Part shown: in pieces, positions 23,241-28,150 of the stretch
Position numbering within the stretch: position 1 is the first letter of the stretch
Layout: every line of letters starts with the position of its first letter
Position numbers and translations under genes: made by a program
From: Kutzneria sp.
Lineage (GTDB): Bacteria > Actinomycetota > Actinomycetes > Mycobacteriales > Pseudonocardiaceae
Length of the DNA stretch: 64,000 nt
Direction: 5' to 3'
Assembly: GCA_019239965.1 (NCBI GenBank)
Contig: JAFAZC010000202.1
Location: forward strand, 1 to 64,000
The notes under the pieces: model-generated
Told to the model about the DNA's origin: nothing
Seen by the model: the letters and a program-made list of their open reading frames with translations, nothing else
The model's database searches: none

Positions 23241-23956
23241 CGTCGCCTCCTTGTCTCATCGACCAATGCCTTGAACAGGCTGACTTCCGCGTCCTGTTCG
23301 GGATGCCACTGCACGCCGAGTACGAAGCCGCCCGTGCTCAGCTCGACCGCCTCGATGACGCCGTCGGCCGCCCACCCGACGGCGTCAAGACCGGCACCGA
23401 GCCGGTCGATCGCCTGATGATGGTGACAGGACACGGTGCTGCCGCGGCCAAGGGCGCCCGCGACCCGGCTGCCGGGGGCCAGCTCGACCTCGATGGGGGT
23501 GAACTCGCCGAGGACGGGCCGGTGGACGGTGCTGCCGGTGACGTCGGGAAGGTGCTGGCTTAGTGTGCCGCCGAAGGCGACGTTGAGCACCTGCATGCCA
23601 CGGCACACGCCGAGCACCGGAATGTCGGCGTCGACGGCGGCGCGTAGCAGCGCGAACTCCACGGCATCCCTCGCCACGCGAGGCGCATCGGTTCCGGGGT
23701 GGGCCGGCTGGCCGTAGCGACCGGGGTCGACGTCGGGACCACCGGCGAGCACCAGGGCATCCACAAAGGACAGACTGGCCTTCTGCCATTCCGCGACCGG
23801 CGGCAGCAACACGGGACTGCCGCCCGCACTGACGACGACATCCACATAGGTCCGTGGAAGCAGCGCGGCTTCGACATCCCAGGGGCCGTAGCGCGCCCTT
23901 TCCAGATAGCTGACGATTCCGACGACCGGGCGCGATTCACAGTCGCTCGAAGCCAC
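23237..23956 (-). CDS. Class I amidotransferase-type gamma-glutamyl hydrolase (PuuD-like)
   Basis: 239 residues. The nucleophile cysteine is in GVCRGMQVLNVAFGG and the His-Glu pair in GVQWHPEQDAE, as in PuuD and Rv2859c. It hydrolyses the gamma-glutamyl bond to release glutamate and the oxidised amine product. GTG 23956 was chosen because GGGAG is seven bases upstream, and it overlaps the 3' end of the synthetase gene by 20 bp. The longer open frame to 24121 is read through that gene. Confidence 0.9.
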   Translation of the reverse strand: MASSDCESRPVVGIVSYLERARYGPWDVEAALLPRTYVDVVVSAGGSPVLLPPVAEWQKASLSFVDALVLAGGPDVDPGRYGQPAHPGTDAPRVARDAVEFALLRAAVDADIPVLGVCRGMQVLNVAFGGTLSQHLPDVTGSTVHRPVLGEFTPIEVELAPGSRVAGALGRGSTVSCHHHQAIDRLGAGLDAVGWAADGVIEAVELSTGGFVLGVQWHPEQDAEVSLFKALVDETRRRR

Positions 23957-25301
23957 GTACACGCTCCCAGTCGGTGACGGCGGAGGAAAAGGCGGCCAGC
24001 TCCACGTTGGCGGCGTTGACATAGTGATTGACGACATCGGTGCCAAAGGCGGACCGGGCGAGTTCACTCGCCGAGAACTCCTCGGCCGCGGCCGCCAGGG
24101 TTGTCGGCACGGTGGGCGCACCGCAGACGTAGGCGTTGCCGGCGACCTCGGGTTCCAACACGAGTTCGTCGTCGATGCCGCGCAGCCCGGCGGCTATCAG
24201 GCCGGACACCGCCAGATAGGGATTGACATCGCCACCGGGGACGCGGTTCTCCACTCGCAGACCAGCGCCGTGGCCGACGAGCCGCAGCGCGCAGGTGCGG
24301 TTGTCCCTGCCCCATGCGACCGCGGTCGGCGCGAAGCTTCCCGGGACGAACCGCTTGTAGGAGTTGATGTTCGGTGCCAACAGCATCGTCAGCTCGCGTA
24401 GGAAGGTGAGCTGACCGGCAATGAAGTGTCCGGCTTGCTTGGACAGCCCGTACGGTCCGTCGCCGGCGAAGGTCAACCCGCCATCCGCGCCGCGCAGGCT
24501 GATGTGAATGTGACAGGAGTTTCCCTCGCGCTGGTCGTACTTGGCCATGAAGGTCAGGCTCTTGCCCTCCTGAGCGGCGATCTCCTTGGCACCAGTCTTG
24601 TACAGCACATGGTTGTCGCAAGTCGTGAGCGCGTCGGCGTAGCGGAACACGATTTCGTGCTGGCCGAGGTTGCATTCGCCTTTTGCGGACTCGACGGCCA
24701 TGCCGGCACCGCCCATCTCGTTGCGGATCCGGCGCAGCAGCGGTTCCACCCTCGAGGTCCCGAGCAGTGAATAGTCCACGTTGTACTGGTTGGCCGGCCG
24801 AAGCCCGCGGTACCCGAGGTCGTTGGCGCGTTCGTAGCTGTCGTCGAACACCATGAATTCCAACTCGGTGCCGACCAGCGCGACAAGGTCGCGCTCGGCC
24901 AGCCGGTCAAGCTGACGGCGCAAGATCTGGCGTGGTGAGACGGTGACCGGACTCTCGTCGGGCCATTCCACATCACACAGCACGAAGGCGGTCGCGGGCA
25001 GCCAGGGAACCAGCCGCAGCGTCGTGAGGTCGGGGCGCATCACGAAATCGCCGTATCCCCGTTCCCACGAGGAGATCTCGTAGCCACCGACAGTGGTCAT
25101 CTCCACGTCGACAGCGAGCAGATAGTTGCACCCTTCGGTGGCGTGTTCGACAACCGTGTCGAGGAAGTAGTGTGCCGCACACCGTTTGCCCTGAAGCCGA
25201 CCCTGCATGTCCACGATGGCGACGAGCACCGTGTCCACCGATCCGCCGTCGACCATGCCGCGCAACGACTCGACGGTGAGCCTGCCTCCGCCGTGTGGCA
25301 T
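23937..25301 (-). CDS. glnA4: Glutamine synthetase-like gamma-glutamyl-amine ligase (GlnA4 type)
   Basis: 454 residues. Conserved glutamine-synthetase features are visible: GTELEFMVF, the beta-Glu region ESAKGECNLGQHEI, SCHIHIS, RLVGHG and the ENRVPGGDVNPYL loop. With the next three genes it reproduces the Rv2860c-Rv2857c order. In Streptomyces coelicolor GlnA4 glutamylates ethanolamine, and its relatives act on polyamines. I infer an ATP-dependent ligase that caps an amine before its oxidation, not an assimilatory glutamine synthetase. ATG 25301 follows AAGGG by seven bases. First gene of the operon. Confidence 0.9.
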   Translation of the reverse strand: MPHGGGRLTVESLRGMVDGGSVDTVLVAIVDMQGRLQGKRCAAHYFLDTVVEHATEGCNYLLAVDVEMTTVGGYEISSWERGYGDFVMRPDLTTLRLVPWLPATAFVLCDVEWPDESPVTVSPRQILRRQLDRLAERDLVALVGTELEFMVFDDSYERANDLGYRGLRPANQYNVDYSLLGTSRVEPLLRRIRNEMGGAGMAVESAKGECNLGQHEIVFRYADALTTCDNHVLYKTGAKEIAAQEGKSLTFMAKYDQREGNSCHIHISLRGADGGLTFAGDGPYGLSKQAGHFIAGQLTFLRELTMLLAPNINSYKRFVPGSFAPTAVAWGRDNRTCALRLVGHGAGLRVENRVPGGDVNPYLAVSGLIAAGLRGIDDELVLEPEVAGNAYVCGAPTVPTTLAAAAEEFSASELARSAFGTDVVNHYVNAANVELAAFSSAVTDWERVRGFERL

Positions 25302-25393
25302 CCGGCCACCCTTCTGCCGTGCGGACAAGGGCCCGCGGCCTTCTCCACGCTGCCGGCCTTTGTGCTGCTGGCCTCCTGGAGGATCCTGATCTA

Positions 25394-25424
25394 TTGACGG
25401 TGGGGCGTCAACTTCAGGTACAGT
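25394..25424 (+). promoter_or_regulatory. Promoter of DAHP synthase leader
   Basis: TTGACG (25394-25399) and TACAGT (25419-25424), 19 bp apart. Transcription starting about seven bases after the -10 would begin at or next to the GTG at 25431, so the leader peptide would be translated from a leaderless transcript. Confidence 0.5.
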
Positions 25425-25430
25425 GGCCCC

Positions 25431-25496
25431 GTGCGGCGTTATCCGTGGTTTAGCGAGCCGGTCCTGGATGGACCCGGCGGCGACACCACGCGCTGA
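25431..25496 (+). CDS. 21-residue aromatic leader peptide (candidate attenuator)
   Basis: A 21-codon open frame starting GTG and beginning VRRYPWFSEP, with Tyr, Trp and Phe codons at positions 4, 6 and 7, then TGA at 25494. All three aromatic amino acids appear within four codons immediately upstream of a gene for the first step of aromatic biosynthesis. This is the hallmark of ribosome-mediated attenuation. Hairpin GGTCC-TGGAT-GGACC (25460-25474) lies inside the later codons and could rearrange when a ribosome stalls at the aromatic cluster. Confidence 0.6.
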   Translation: MRRYPWFSEPVLDGPGGDTTR

Positions 25497-25513
25497 CCGC
25501 GACGATCATCCAG

Positions 25514-25594
25514 AGCCGGCCCTGGCGAGGCGAGAAAGCCTCAGCCTTTCGTTTGCTGCTACGCAGGCAAGCCGGCTCACCTGGATCGGCTTGC
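25514..25594 (+). promoter_or_regulatory. Alternative RNA hairpins upstream of DAHP synthase (attenuator)
   Basis: A terminator-like stem GGCGAGGC (25524-25531) / GCCTC-A-GCC (25538-25546) is followed by TTTCGTTTG. A second stem GCAAGCCG (25567-25574) / CGGCTTGC (25587-25594) lies just ahead of the ribosome-binding site. AGCCGGC (25514-25520) can instead pair with GCCGGCT (25571-25577), and CATCCAG (25507-25513) with CTGGATG inside the leader ORF (25464-25470). Mutually exclusive pairings of this kind fit attenuation. Pairings were found by eye; energies were not computed. Confidence 0.5.
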
Positions 25595-25611
25595 GGAGAG
25601 GAATCCCCACC

Positions 25612-26697
25612 GTGTCCATTGGTGATCAGATACACAATCAGCGCATCGTCGGCAGCCGACCGATGATCTCCCCGGCACTGCTGCGTGACGAGTTGCCACT
25701 GACCGAAGCCGGCCAGGCTGGCGTCCTGCGCAGCCGTGCCGCCGTCACCAGGGTTCTCGACGGCGTCGACGACCGGCTGCTCGTCGTCGTCGGCCCCTGC
25801 TCGGTGCACGACCCGGTGGCCGGCCTCGACTACGCGCGCCGGCTCGCCGAACTCGCCGCGGAGCTGTCCGATCAGCTGTGCGTCGTCATGCGCGTGTACT
25901 TCGAGAAGCCGAGGACAACCCTGGGCTGGAAGGGCCTGCTCAACGATCCAGGCCTCGACGGCAGCTTCGACGTCAACCACGGGCTGCGCACCGCTCGCGC
26001 GCTGTTGCTGGACATCCTCGCGCTCGACCTACCAGTGGGATGCGAGTTCCTCGATCCGATCACCCCGCAGTACATCGCCGACACCGTCAGCTGGGGCTCG
26101 ATCGGCGCGAGGACCGCACAGAGCCAGGTGCACCGCCAGCTGTGCAGCGGGCTGTCGATGCCGATCGGGATCAAGAACTCCACCGACGGCGACGTGCAGG
26201 TCGCCGTCGACGCGGTGAAGGCGGCCGCCAGCAGTCACGTGTTCCCGGGGATCACCGACGACGGGCTCGCGGCGATCTTCTCCACCAGCGGCAATCCCGA
26301 CTGCCACGTGATCCTGCGCGGTGGCGCCGCCGGTCCGAACTACGACCGGGTCAGCGTCGAGGCGACGGTGGACCGCCTTGAGCGGGCCGCTCTGCCCGGC
26401 CGGCTCATCGTCGACGCCAGCCACGGCAACAGCGGCAAGGACCACCTGCGCCAACCCGTCGTGGCGGCTGAGGTCGGTGCCCGGCTGGCCGCCGGCGAGC
26501 ACGGTGTCGTCGGCCTGATGCTGGAAAGCTTCCTCGTGCCCGGTCGACAGGAGCTCACCCTCGGCAGGGCGTCGGATCTCGTCTACGGGCAGAGCGTCAC
26601 CGACGGATGCATGGGCTGGGAGACGACCGTGTCGGTGTTGCGGGAGTTGGCCTCGGCCGTTGCCCAGCGGCGGACGTGCGCGCTCGCGACCACCTAG
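25612..26697 (+). CDS. aroG: 3-deoxy-7-phosphoheptulonate (DAHP) synthase, type I (AroG-like)
   Basis: 361 residues, close to E. coli AroG/F/H. Motifs: VVVGPCSVHDP, MRVYFEKPRTTLGWKGLLNDP, GCEFLDPITPQY, SWGSIGARTAQSQVHRQL, PIGIKNSTDG, DASHGNSGKDH and LMLESFL. It condenses phosphoenolpyruvate with erythrose-4-phosphate, the first shikimate-pathway step. GTG 25612 (after GGAGAGGA) gives the family N-terminus; the open frame begins earlier at 25423. Most actinobacteria rely on the plant-like type II enzyme, so this may be a second isoenzyme. Expression probably responds to aromatic amino acids through the upstream leader. Confidence 0.93.
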   Translation: MSIGDQIHNQRIVGSRPMISPALLRDELPLTEAGQAGVLRSRAAVTRVLDGVDDRLLVVVGPCSVHDPVAGLDYARRLAELAAELSDQLCVVMRVYFEKPRTTLGWKGLLNDPGLDGSFDVNHGLRTARALLLDILALDLPVGCEFLDPITPQYIADTVSWGSIGARTAQSQVHRQLCSGLSMPIGIKNSTDGDVQVAVDAVKAAASSHVFPGITDDGLAAIFSTSGNPDCHVILRGGAAGPNYDRVSVEATVDRLERAALPGRLIVDASHGNSGKDHLRQPVVAAEVGARLAAGEHGVVGLMLESFLVPGRQELTLGRASDLVYGQSVTDGCMGWETTVSVLRELASAVAQRRTCALATT

Positions 26698-27680
26698 CGG
26701 TCAGCCGGCCAGCCGGACCGGACGAAGGTCAGCCCGCCGGCGCCGGCGGCGCAGATCCAGGCGAGCACGAGCGTGATGATCGTCTGCGAACCGGCGTTGA
26801 TCAAGACAGCCCACCACAGCGCGAGACCGAGGGCGCTCACGAGCAGCACACAGGCCAGCGCGGCCAGCGGCGAGCGACAGGGCGCCGCGGCCAACGCCAG
26901 TCGGCTGCCCGATGGCGCCCGGACCAGCGCGGCGAGCGCCAGCACGGCCACGACCGGCGGTAGCACGAGCCCTCCCCAGGCCAGCAACGGAGCGGGCCGG
27001 GACCCGCCGGCTACCACCAGGAGGGTGATCAGACCCACCACGACAGCGCAGACCGGTCGAGCCGACTGCTGGAACAGCTGGGTGATGTCGGGACGGTCGG
27101 CGGGCCGGGCATCCGGCACCCTCCTGCGCAGCCGGGTCAACTGCACTCGAATCCTCGAGTCGTCCGGCGCCTTGCGCAGCGCCGCCCGGTAGGCACGCTC
27201 GGCCGTTGAGAAGTCCCGGATCCGCACGGCGGCATCACCGAGCAGAAGATACGGCCGCACCTGGGTCGGTCCGAGTTCCACCGAGCGCCGGGCCGCCGCC
27301 AGCGCCTCCGGCCAACGTCGGGCCGCGGCCAGCGCCTCGGCCAACGCGAAGGGGCACCGCCAGTCCGACGGTGCGAGCCGAGCCGCCCTGCGAGCGGCCG
27401 TGACGGCTTCACGGTGCCGATGAAGGCCGCTGAGCGCCCTGCTGGCCAGCCGCTGAGCCAGGGCGCGGTCACCGCCTAGCGGCAACGCGCGAGTGGCGGC
27501 CGCCAGCGCGGCCGCAGGGTCGCCCCGGTCCAGATGTGCCGCCGCGAGCCGACACCACACGTCCTGCCGATACGGGTGTTCGACGGTGATCGGTTTGAGC
27601 AGTGCGATGGCCTTACCCGCTCGTCCGCTCGCGGTCAGCTCCGCCGCCTGGTGCAGCACCGAACTGATCGGCTCGACCAT
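26694..27680 (-). CDS. TPR-repeat protein with C-terminal membrane domain
   Basis: 328 residues. The N-terminal ~190 are tetratricopeptide-like helices rich in Ala and Arg (PAAALAAATRALPLGGDRA, WPEALAAARRSVELGP, FSTAERAYRAALRKAPDD), a protein-protein scaffold. The C-terminal ~130 form four membrane helices. ATG 27680 follows GGGAGGA by eight bases and was preferred to the first codon of the open frame at 27725. The stop overlaps the DAHP synthase stop by 4 bp (convergent). Function unknown. Confidence 0.8.
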   Translation of the reverse strand: MVEPISSVLHQAAELTASGRAGKAIALLKPITVEHPYRQDVWCRLAAAHLDRGDPAAALAAATRALPLGGDRALAQRLASRALSGLHRHREAVTAARRAARLAPSDWRCPFALAEALAAARRWPEALAAARRSVELGPTQVRPYLLLGDAAVRIRDFSTAERAYRAALRKAPDDSRIRVQLTRLRRRVPDARPADRPDITQLFQQSARPVCAVVVGLITLLVVAGGSRPAPLLAWGGLVLPPVVAVLALAALVRAPSGSRLALAAAPCRSPLAALACVLLVSALGLALWWAVLINAGSQTIITLVLAWICAAGAGGLTFVRSGWPADR

Positions 27681-28150
27681 CGCTCGCGTCCTCCCGCGCT
27701 CAGCGACTATGACCACCGATCTCATCTTGACAGGAAGTTCACGCCAGAAGAGCGGCTTGGCGATACCGGCGTGTCGCCCATTGCGGTACCGCCACTCAGT
27801 CCAATGCGGTTTTCATGATCATATCCGGCCTGGCCGACCTTGTCAGAGACGGGACACCAGCGGCCGCCCTGCCATGTTTGTGCAGGTCATCCATTCATCC
27901 GCTCATCCTATCTACTGTCGGTTCTGTGATCCTGGTCACACCACTCCCTCTCATTCGCCTGATCAGGTCATCTCCGAGCACTTTCGTACGGTGAATTACC
28001 GTTACCTCTGGACCCATCCCCAGATGAGTGACAGATTGAACCGAGAAGTTCGCCTGGGGGCGACATTGAGTGAACGTGAACAGGAGCACTGCGGATGAGC
28101 GGTCTACTCCCGACCACGTTGAGATGTTGGGAACTTGAGGGGTGGACACT
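27681..28150 (+). promoter_or_regulatory. ssgB upstream region with three tandem palindromes
   Basis: This 470-bp gap has no convincing gene apart from a small uORF near its end. It holds a perfect CRP-type site, TGTGA-N6-TCACA (27925-27940), a 10-bp palindrome CCTGATCAGG (27958-27967), and ACGGT-N5-ACCGT (27988-28002). Their centres are about 30 and 33 bp apart, so they lie on one face of the helix. They are 150-225 bp before ssgB. This looks like a multi-input developmental promoter. Confidence 0.5.

Follow-up and report, generated by a model that had tools for sequence, protein, structure and literature searches.

DAHP synthase (DAHPS) gates the entry of carbon into all aromatic compounds, including many actinomycete antibiotics and industrial products. 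In the E. coli trp and pheA systems, a Shine-Dalgarno-led leader carries its control codons inside segment 1, and an antiterminator competes directly with the terminator. In actinobacteria, leaderless trpL, ilvL and leuL attenuators are known from Streptomyces and corynebacteria (PMC8079986, PMC5784534), and in the LEU element before leuA, described by Seliverstov et al. (2005; PMC1262725), a pseudoknot has at its base a pairing of the Leu codons themselves with the Shine-Dalgarno. No conserved RNA structures were found before Phe or Tyr operons in that survey of actinobacterial RNA regulation (PMC1262725), and a DAHPS leader is not among the eight S. lividans leaders listed in PMC8079986. The closest described system is aroR, a leader upstream of aroF in C. 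glutamicum (Neshat et al., 2014, as cited in PMC11802643; also PMC4046766 and PMC7356990). In a 2025 review, aroR is reported to derepress on Phe limitation and to respond to Phe, not to Tyr (PMC11802643).

Here, we analyzed a 64,000-nucleotide stretch of DNA from Kutzneria sp. (the window), in which an element of this kind appears to precede a type I DAHPS gene. With a probability of roughly 78%, we consider it to be a ribosome-stalling attenuator of this gene, comprising a leaderless leader peptide and a switch between the RNA helices R1:R3, R3:R4 and R4:R5. The DAHPS gene (25612 to 26697, plus strand, from the ORF list; GTG start, 361 aa; Pfam PF00793, E 3.8e-84) stands alone, flanked by two genes of the opposite strand: upstream, a glutamine-synthetase-like gene (23937 to 25328), and downstream, a TPR-domain gene (26694 to 27725). 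It is the one type I copy that we found in this genome, which also contains type II DAHPS, one complete and further partial copies (contigs C94, C13 and C74 of G000). Control searches gave the same pairing of type I and type II in C. glutamicum. On the minus strand of the window, between 21879 and 25328, an aldehyde dehydrogenase gene, a putative gene for a probable class I glutamine amidotransferase and the glutamine-synthetase-like gene are grouped, which suggests a cluster for gamma-glutamyl polyamine or amine catabolism that runs divergently from DAHPS.

The 283-nt gap upstream of DAHPS holds a -10-like hexamer, a 21-codon ORF and then 115 nt of structured RNA, all features described below being on the plus strand. 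The ORF (MRRYPWFSEPVLDGPGGDTTR, 25431 to 25496) begins GTG CGG CGT TAT CCG TGG TTT and ends with TGA, in a frame that differs from that of DAHPS. Its sequence contains the control codons TAT CCG TGG TTT (Tyr-Pro-Trp-Phe, 25440 to 25451), with Tyr and Phe in their rare forms. The -10-like hexamer TACAGT (25419 to 25424) lies 6 nt before the start codon, which sits at the predicted +1, and this spacing is kept in relatives. A weak -35-like hexamer, TTGACG (25394 to 25399), was recognized from the letters only and is separated from TACAGT by a long, 19-nt spacer. Generic sigma-70 promoter and terminator scans reported nothing in the leader region, because the spacer is too long for the promoter scan and a bulged A interrupts the terminator stem. 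An earlier sequence-only reading of this DNA had claimed a Tyr-Pro-Trp-Phe ORF at a predicted transcription start, directly before type I DAHPS, and both claims are borne out, with the DAHPS start set at GTG 25612.

How far is this arrangement conserved? Among the 110 type I DAHPS loci whose upstream sequence we read, nearly all those from actinobacteria have a leader that follows the pattern MQRYFWFSxPAxGG, MNIxxRAYWRFIEAPGGA or MTRSYRWFRQPA. A covariance model built on the leader plus R1:R3, used at E <= 0.01 on 399 genomes of the order, found exactly one element each in 159 genomes, and DAHPS lay downstream at 69 of the 70 loci checked. For a sample that the model had not selected, we drew 20 DAHPS loci of one related family by protein search, and the leader is present at all 20 of these type I loci, picked under the hexamer requirement that follows. 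In 122 of 125 leaders, window included, the start codon lies 6 or 7 nt past a TANNNT hexamer; since the picking script demanded a hexamer within 4 to 10 nt, the informative part is the tight spacing and not the presence of the hexamer. Transcription that begins right at the start codon would give such spacing. Leaderless transcripts, also proposed by the earlier reading, are likely, and the predicted start remains at 25431 and not well downstream of it. The start codon, the stop codon and the aromatic residues of the mini-ORF are all kept in relatives. Judged by this conservation, a chance origin of the ORF and of the structures that follow it is out of the question.

The same comparison bears on another use of this DNA, as the 5' end of a longer DAHPS frame. 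An in-frame ORF of 424 aa does run open in the window from GTG 25423, but this codon lies upstream of the predicted transcription start, and conservation tracks the RNA pairing and the other frame. Moreover, leader start and DAHPS start are 181, 187, 183 and 180 nt apart in members of the genus, so the two do not keep a constant frame relation. An N-terminal extension from 25423 was rejected on this ground, and we give the longer frame practically no credence.

The control block is built from the rarest Phe and Tyr codons, which are nearly absent from the DAHPS genes themselves. In fact, the 125 leaders contain 130 TTT, 52 TTC, 113 TAT and 14 TAC codons, against 2 TTT, 623 TTC, 5 TAT and 493 TAC in the DAHPS genes of the same genomes (Fisher p < 1e-100 for both Phe and Tyr). 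Across these leaders, TTT and TAT are favoured over TTC and TAC in the control blocks of GC-rich genomes, and this strict use gives a direct way to test how the sensitivity of a stalling switch depends on codon choice. Phe, Tyr and Trp all occur within the first 16 residues in 117 of the 125 leaders. The earlier proposal that one leader senses all three aromatic amino acids thus stands as far as the codons go; a response to all three may be expected from codon content, whereas C. glutamicum aroR is reported to respond to Phe and not to Tyr (PMC11802643).

Downstream of the control block, the RNA can adopt several helices. R1 (CCGGTCCTGGATGG, 25458 to 25471) lies inside the leader ORF, 6 nt past the last control codon, and pairs with R3 (TCATCCAGAGCCGGC, 25506 to 25520; -20.8 kcal/mol). 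R3 is the switch strand: through GAGCCGGC (25513 to 25520) it can pair instead with R4 (GCAAGCCGGCTC, 25567 to 25578), the segment involved being GCCGGCTC (25571 to 25578; -16.2 kcal/mol). R4 in turn uses GCAAGCCG (25567 to 25574) to pair with R5 (CGGCTTGC, 25587 to 25594; -15.0 kcal/mol), which lies directly upstream of the DAHPS Shine-Dalgarno, GGAGAGG (25595 to 25601; anti-SD duplex -9.7 kcal/mol). The region from 25431 to 25625 folds better than its dinucleotide shuffles (z -2.77), 1 of 200 shuffles being as good.

These pairings covary. Over the 14 pair columns of R1:R3, 80.3% of cells are paired, whereas controls made by sliding never exceed 49.9%. Both partners have changed in 40 cells (14 +/- 2.6 in shuffles), and one column pair reads GC in 18 sequences, UA in 10 and CG in 9. 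We also compared each sequence's own pairing with pairings in which partners were swapped between species, a test that removes shared ancestry only in part. In 49 relatives of the class lacking the terminator it gave z 5.4 for R1:R3, 6.9 for R4:R5 and 7.4 for R5:R6, a helix that would sequester the Shine-Dalgarno; in 47 terminator-bearing relatives, R1:R3 reached z 5.1 and R3:R4 z 6.2. After thinning to below 75% identity, helix z values are still 3.3 to 4.9, except for R5:R6 in the terminator class, which the window resembles, where z is 0.9 (against 3.8 in sequences lacking the terminator). At a 65% cut, 8 to 15 sequences are left and z falls to about 2 to 4. Within the window's genus, R4:R5 reads GCAAGCC:GGCTTGC in the window, GCAGACC:GGTCTGC in L002, GCAGGCC:GGCCTGC in L003 and GCAGGCC:GGTCTGC in L005, which amounts to compensatory change. 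The competing structure announced by the sequence-only reading is therefore real and has conserved pairings in relatives; the covariation supports R1:R3, R3:R4 and R4:R5 as alternative helices forming a chain that leads to the Shine-Dalgarno.

Other candidates were dropped. R2 (GGACCCGGC, 25470 to 25478) can close a local hairpin with 25457 to 25464 (-12.4 kcal/mol), and the arms of R1:R2 are complementary in the window, yet as a conserved competitor it was rejected because it lacks covariation and its register varies between clades. R1:R5 is prominent in the window's minimum-energy fold and also lacks covariation (z about 0). Whole-duplex energies between the leader and the downstream RNA were uninformative owing to GC content.

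Could the leader be translated merely to open an inhibitory structure, or to feed re-initiation at DAHPS, with no amino-acid-specific stall? The 115 nt that separate the end of the leader from the gene are highly structured, as such simple coupling would have it. However, no part of the peptide is better conserved than its block of rare aromatic codons, and almost all sequences place the beginning of R1 at a constant 12 nt from the start of the TGGTTT (or TGGCG) block, so that we regard simple coupling as quite improbable. A leader RNA that binds a metabolite or a protein, the short ORF being incidental, would also account for a structured and conserved RNA. Against it, conservation extends to the start and stop codons, the aromatic residues and the use of rare codons, the variable bases lie in mutually exclusive helices, and the alignment has no compact conserved unpaired core. 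Nor does the element match any Rfam 15 family above the gathering score, T-box, riboswitches and amino acid leaders included. We hold a binding RNA to be very unlikely, slightly more so than simple coupling. Ribosome stalling on the aromatic codons remains our preferred reading.

Between R3 and R4 is nested an intrinsic-terminator-like hairpin, GGCGAGGC-GAGAAA-GCCTCaGCC-TTTCGTTT (25524 to 25554; -13.4 kcal/mol), with an 8-bp stem, a bulged A and the tail TTTCGTTT. The hairpin claimed earlier after the leader ORF is thus genuine in kind: relatives of the same genus have, at the same place between R3 and R4, a perfect 11 to 12 bp stem with a U-rich tail. It is missing in many other relatives. 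Where it occurs, R1:R3 ends within a few nucleotides of it. In a scan of the leader and the post-stop region in the 47 terminator-bearing sequences, neither terminator arm had a covarying antiterminator partner, so a classical overlapping antiterminator is unsupported. The earlier reading had modelled its mechanism on the trp and phe attenuators; a stalling attenuator is what conservation and covariation support, with the refinement that relatives share no antiterminator overlapping the terminator stem.

One may ask whether the terminator alone matters. In a purely transcriptional attenuator, the abutting R1:R3 helix would stop the terminator from zippering, and R4 and R5 would be incidental. 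In fact, the terminator 5' arm starts 5 to 10 nt from the first G of GAGCC in 47 of 47 terminator-bearing sequences, so that R1:R3 always abuts it, and C. glutamicum has R1:R3 and a terminator and lacks R4, yet is reported to be regulated (PMC11802643). But the 49 relatives of which nearly all lack a U-tract terminator keep R1:R3, R3:R4 and R4:R5, R3:R4 covaries even with the terminator nested inside it, and an antiterminator overlapping the terminator stem is wanting. A purely transcriptional switch is therefore doubtful, though much the most serious of the alternatives.

We propose instead that stalling acts through the whole chain of helices. Transcription would start at or beside the leader GTG, and the leader would be translated as a leaderless mRNA. 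When charged aromatic tRNA is plentiful, the ribosome would pass R1 and reach the stop codon, leaving R3 free. The terminator hairpin could then form, and in any RNA that is read through, R3 would pair with R4 and block the R4:R5 hairpin. In relatives lacking the terminator, a pairing of R5 with R6 across the Shine-Dalgarno would become possible as well in this OFF state. When charged aromatic tRNA is scarce, the ribosome would stall at the rare TAT or TTT codons (or at TGG) and leave R1 uncovered, and R1 would capture R3. R4 would then be free for R5, and the Shine-Dalgarno just downstream would be offered to ribosomes. We take R1:R3 plus R4:R5 to be the probable ON state, by analogy, because starvation must induce and because the R3:R4 equivalent of proteobacterial DAHPS leaders is a terminator. 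As to the mode of terminator relief in the window's clade, we infer and indeed speculate that the abutting R1:R3 helix may hinder the hairpin.

Folding models agree with this scheme in part. In the window, holding R3 open lowers the cost of opening the Shine-Dalgarno from 5.5 to 3.9 kcal/mol, a modest effect. Among class A sequences, only about half show a clear gain in modelled opening, and class B shows no trend, so we abandoned this energy as a general two-state test. R5:R6 appears in OFF-state models of some terminator-less sequences (e.g. L009), not of all. Since the helix chain reaches the Shine-Dalgarno and many relatives lack a terminator, we consider translational control no less likely than control by classical termination, and the window's clade represents a variant with a probable translational relay.

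How does this element compare with aroR? We examined a C. glutamicum-type aroF locus in a genome of the genus Corynebacterium, with the exact aroF start located by a primer sequence given in PMC7356990. Upstream of it, TAAGGT is followed after 7 nt by ATG TTC GCA GCA CGA TTT TAT TTT ATG TCC GGC TCC GGG and further codons, a leader that agrees with the published Phe-Tyr-Phe leader (PMC4046766, PMC11802643). Its R3 (CCGGAGTCG) pairs with R1 at -17.7 kcal/mol and is directly followed by the terminator; beyond the terminator, R3 lacks a strong partner (-5.9 against a class median of -20.4 kcal/mol). Both systems thus have an aromatic leader ORF, probably leaderless in the window, directly before type I DAHPS, TTT and TAT control codons, and an R1:R3 pairing with a terminator right after R3, the window's being bulged. 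Unlike the window's, the control block of aroR lacks Trp, and aroR has no R4 and cannot form the R3:R4 and R4:R5 steps of the window's clade. By its sequence, the window element is of the same kind as aroR, with an R4/R5 part added.

Likeness to the other systems is looser. As in E. coli trp and pheA, the ribosome position would choose between exclusive hairpins, and the leader carries control codons for pathway products; the difference lies in the lack, over the 47 sequences, of an antiterminator overlapping the terminator stem. With LEU, the window element shares a leader ORF with a codon run, probably alternative structures acting on the Shine-Dalgarno and, in many cases, the lack of a terminator, but it leaves its control codons unpaired and would work through a relay of helices. 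The trpL, ilvL and leuL leaders, leaderless as the window's probably is, are rich in the end-product amino acid, some with terminators, and belong to other pathways. Outside the actinobacteria, 21 of 49 type I DAHPS loci have an aromatic leader and a U-tract terminator. In proteobacterial cases (e.g. L065, L071, L090), R1 lies inside the ORF after the control codons and pairs with R3, as in the window; there, however, R3 serves as the 5' arm of a genuine terminator with a U-tract, as in classical transcription attenuation, and the likeness need not mean homology. Such proteobacterial leaders, MSAKFYFYFFWHLRPLADREG and RSFYFWYYGFPMPLAEEG among them, have the U-tract terminator CCGCCAG...CTGGCGG, and leader codons pair with its 5' arm. 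They occur at L059, L060, L065, L071, L072, L081, L087, L090, L091, L097, L101, L106 and L107, and those tested matched no Rfam family.

Very probably, then, the element lets the bacterium raise DAHPS when aromatic amino acids run short, and the experimentally described aroR leader appears to be one version of an element retained in many actinobacterial genera. This wider distribution may already have been noticed by others, the literature covered here being open-access papers. More tentatively, and with odds somewhat below even, we envision one unnamed element throughout the actinobacteria, in which a leaderless leader would read Tyr, Trp and Phe via rare wobble codons and exclusive helices (R1:R3 plus R4:R5 versus R3:R4 plus R5:R6) would relay the outcome to the DAHPS Shine-Dalgarno. 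The terminator would be added, nested or dropped by lineage and, where present, relieved by an abutting helix instead of an overlapping antiterminator. Removing or recoding the leader would be an obvious route to a stronger aromatic supply in harmless production strains.

Two further motifs were seen upstream of the leader in relatives. An inverted repeat, CAATGGACTGATCCTGACCCATTG, lies just upstream of the promoter, about 35 to 60 nt before the leader start, in four members of the window's genus (L003, L005, L006 and L007); it is absent from the window, partly kept in L002, and possibly an operator. In L008, L009, L010, L011, L012, L015, L016, L018, L020 and L033, the motif T(T/G)GATCGGTGCAG occurs at a variable distance, 37 to 102 nt upstream of the leader start, and possibly belongs to a divergent promoter or serves as a binding site.
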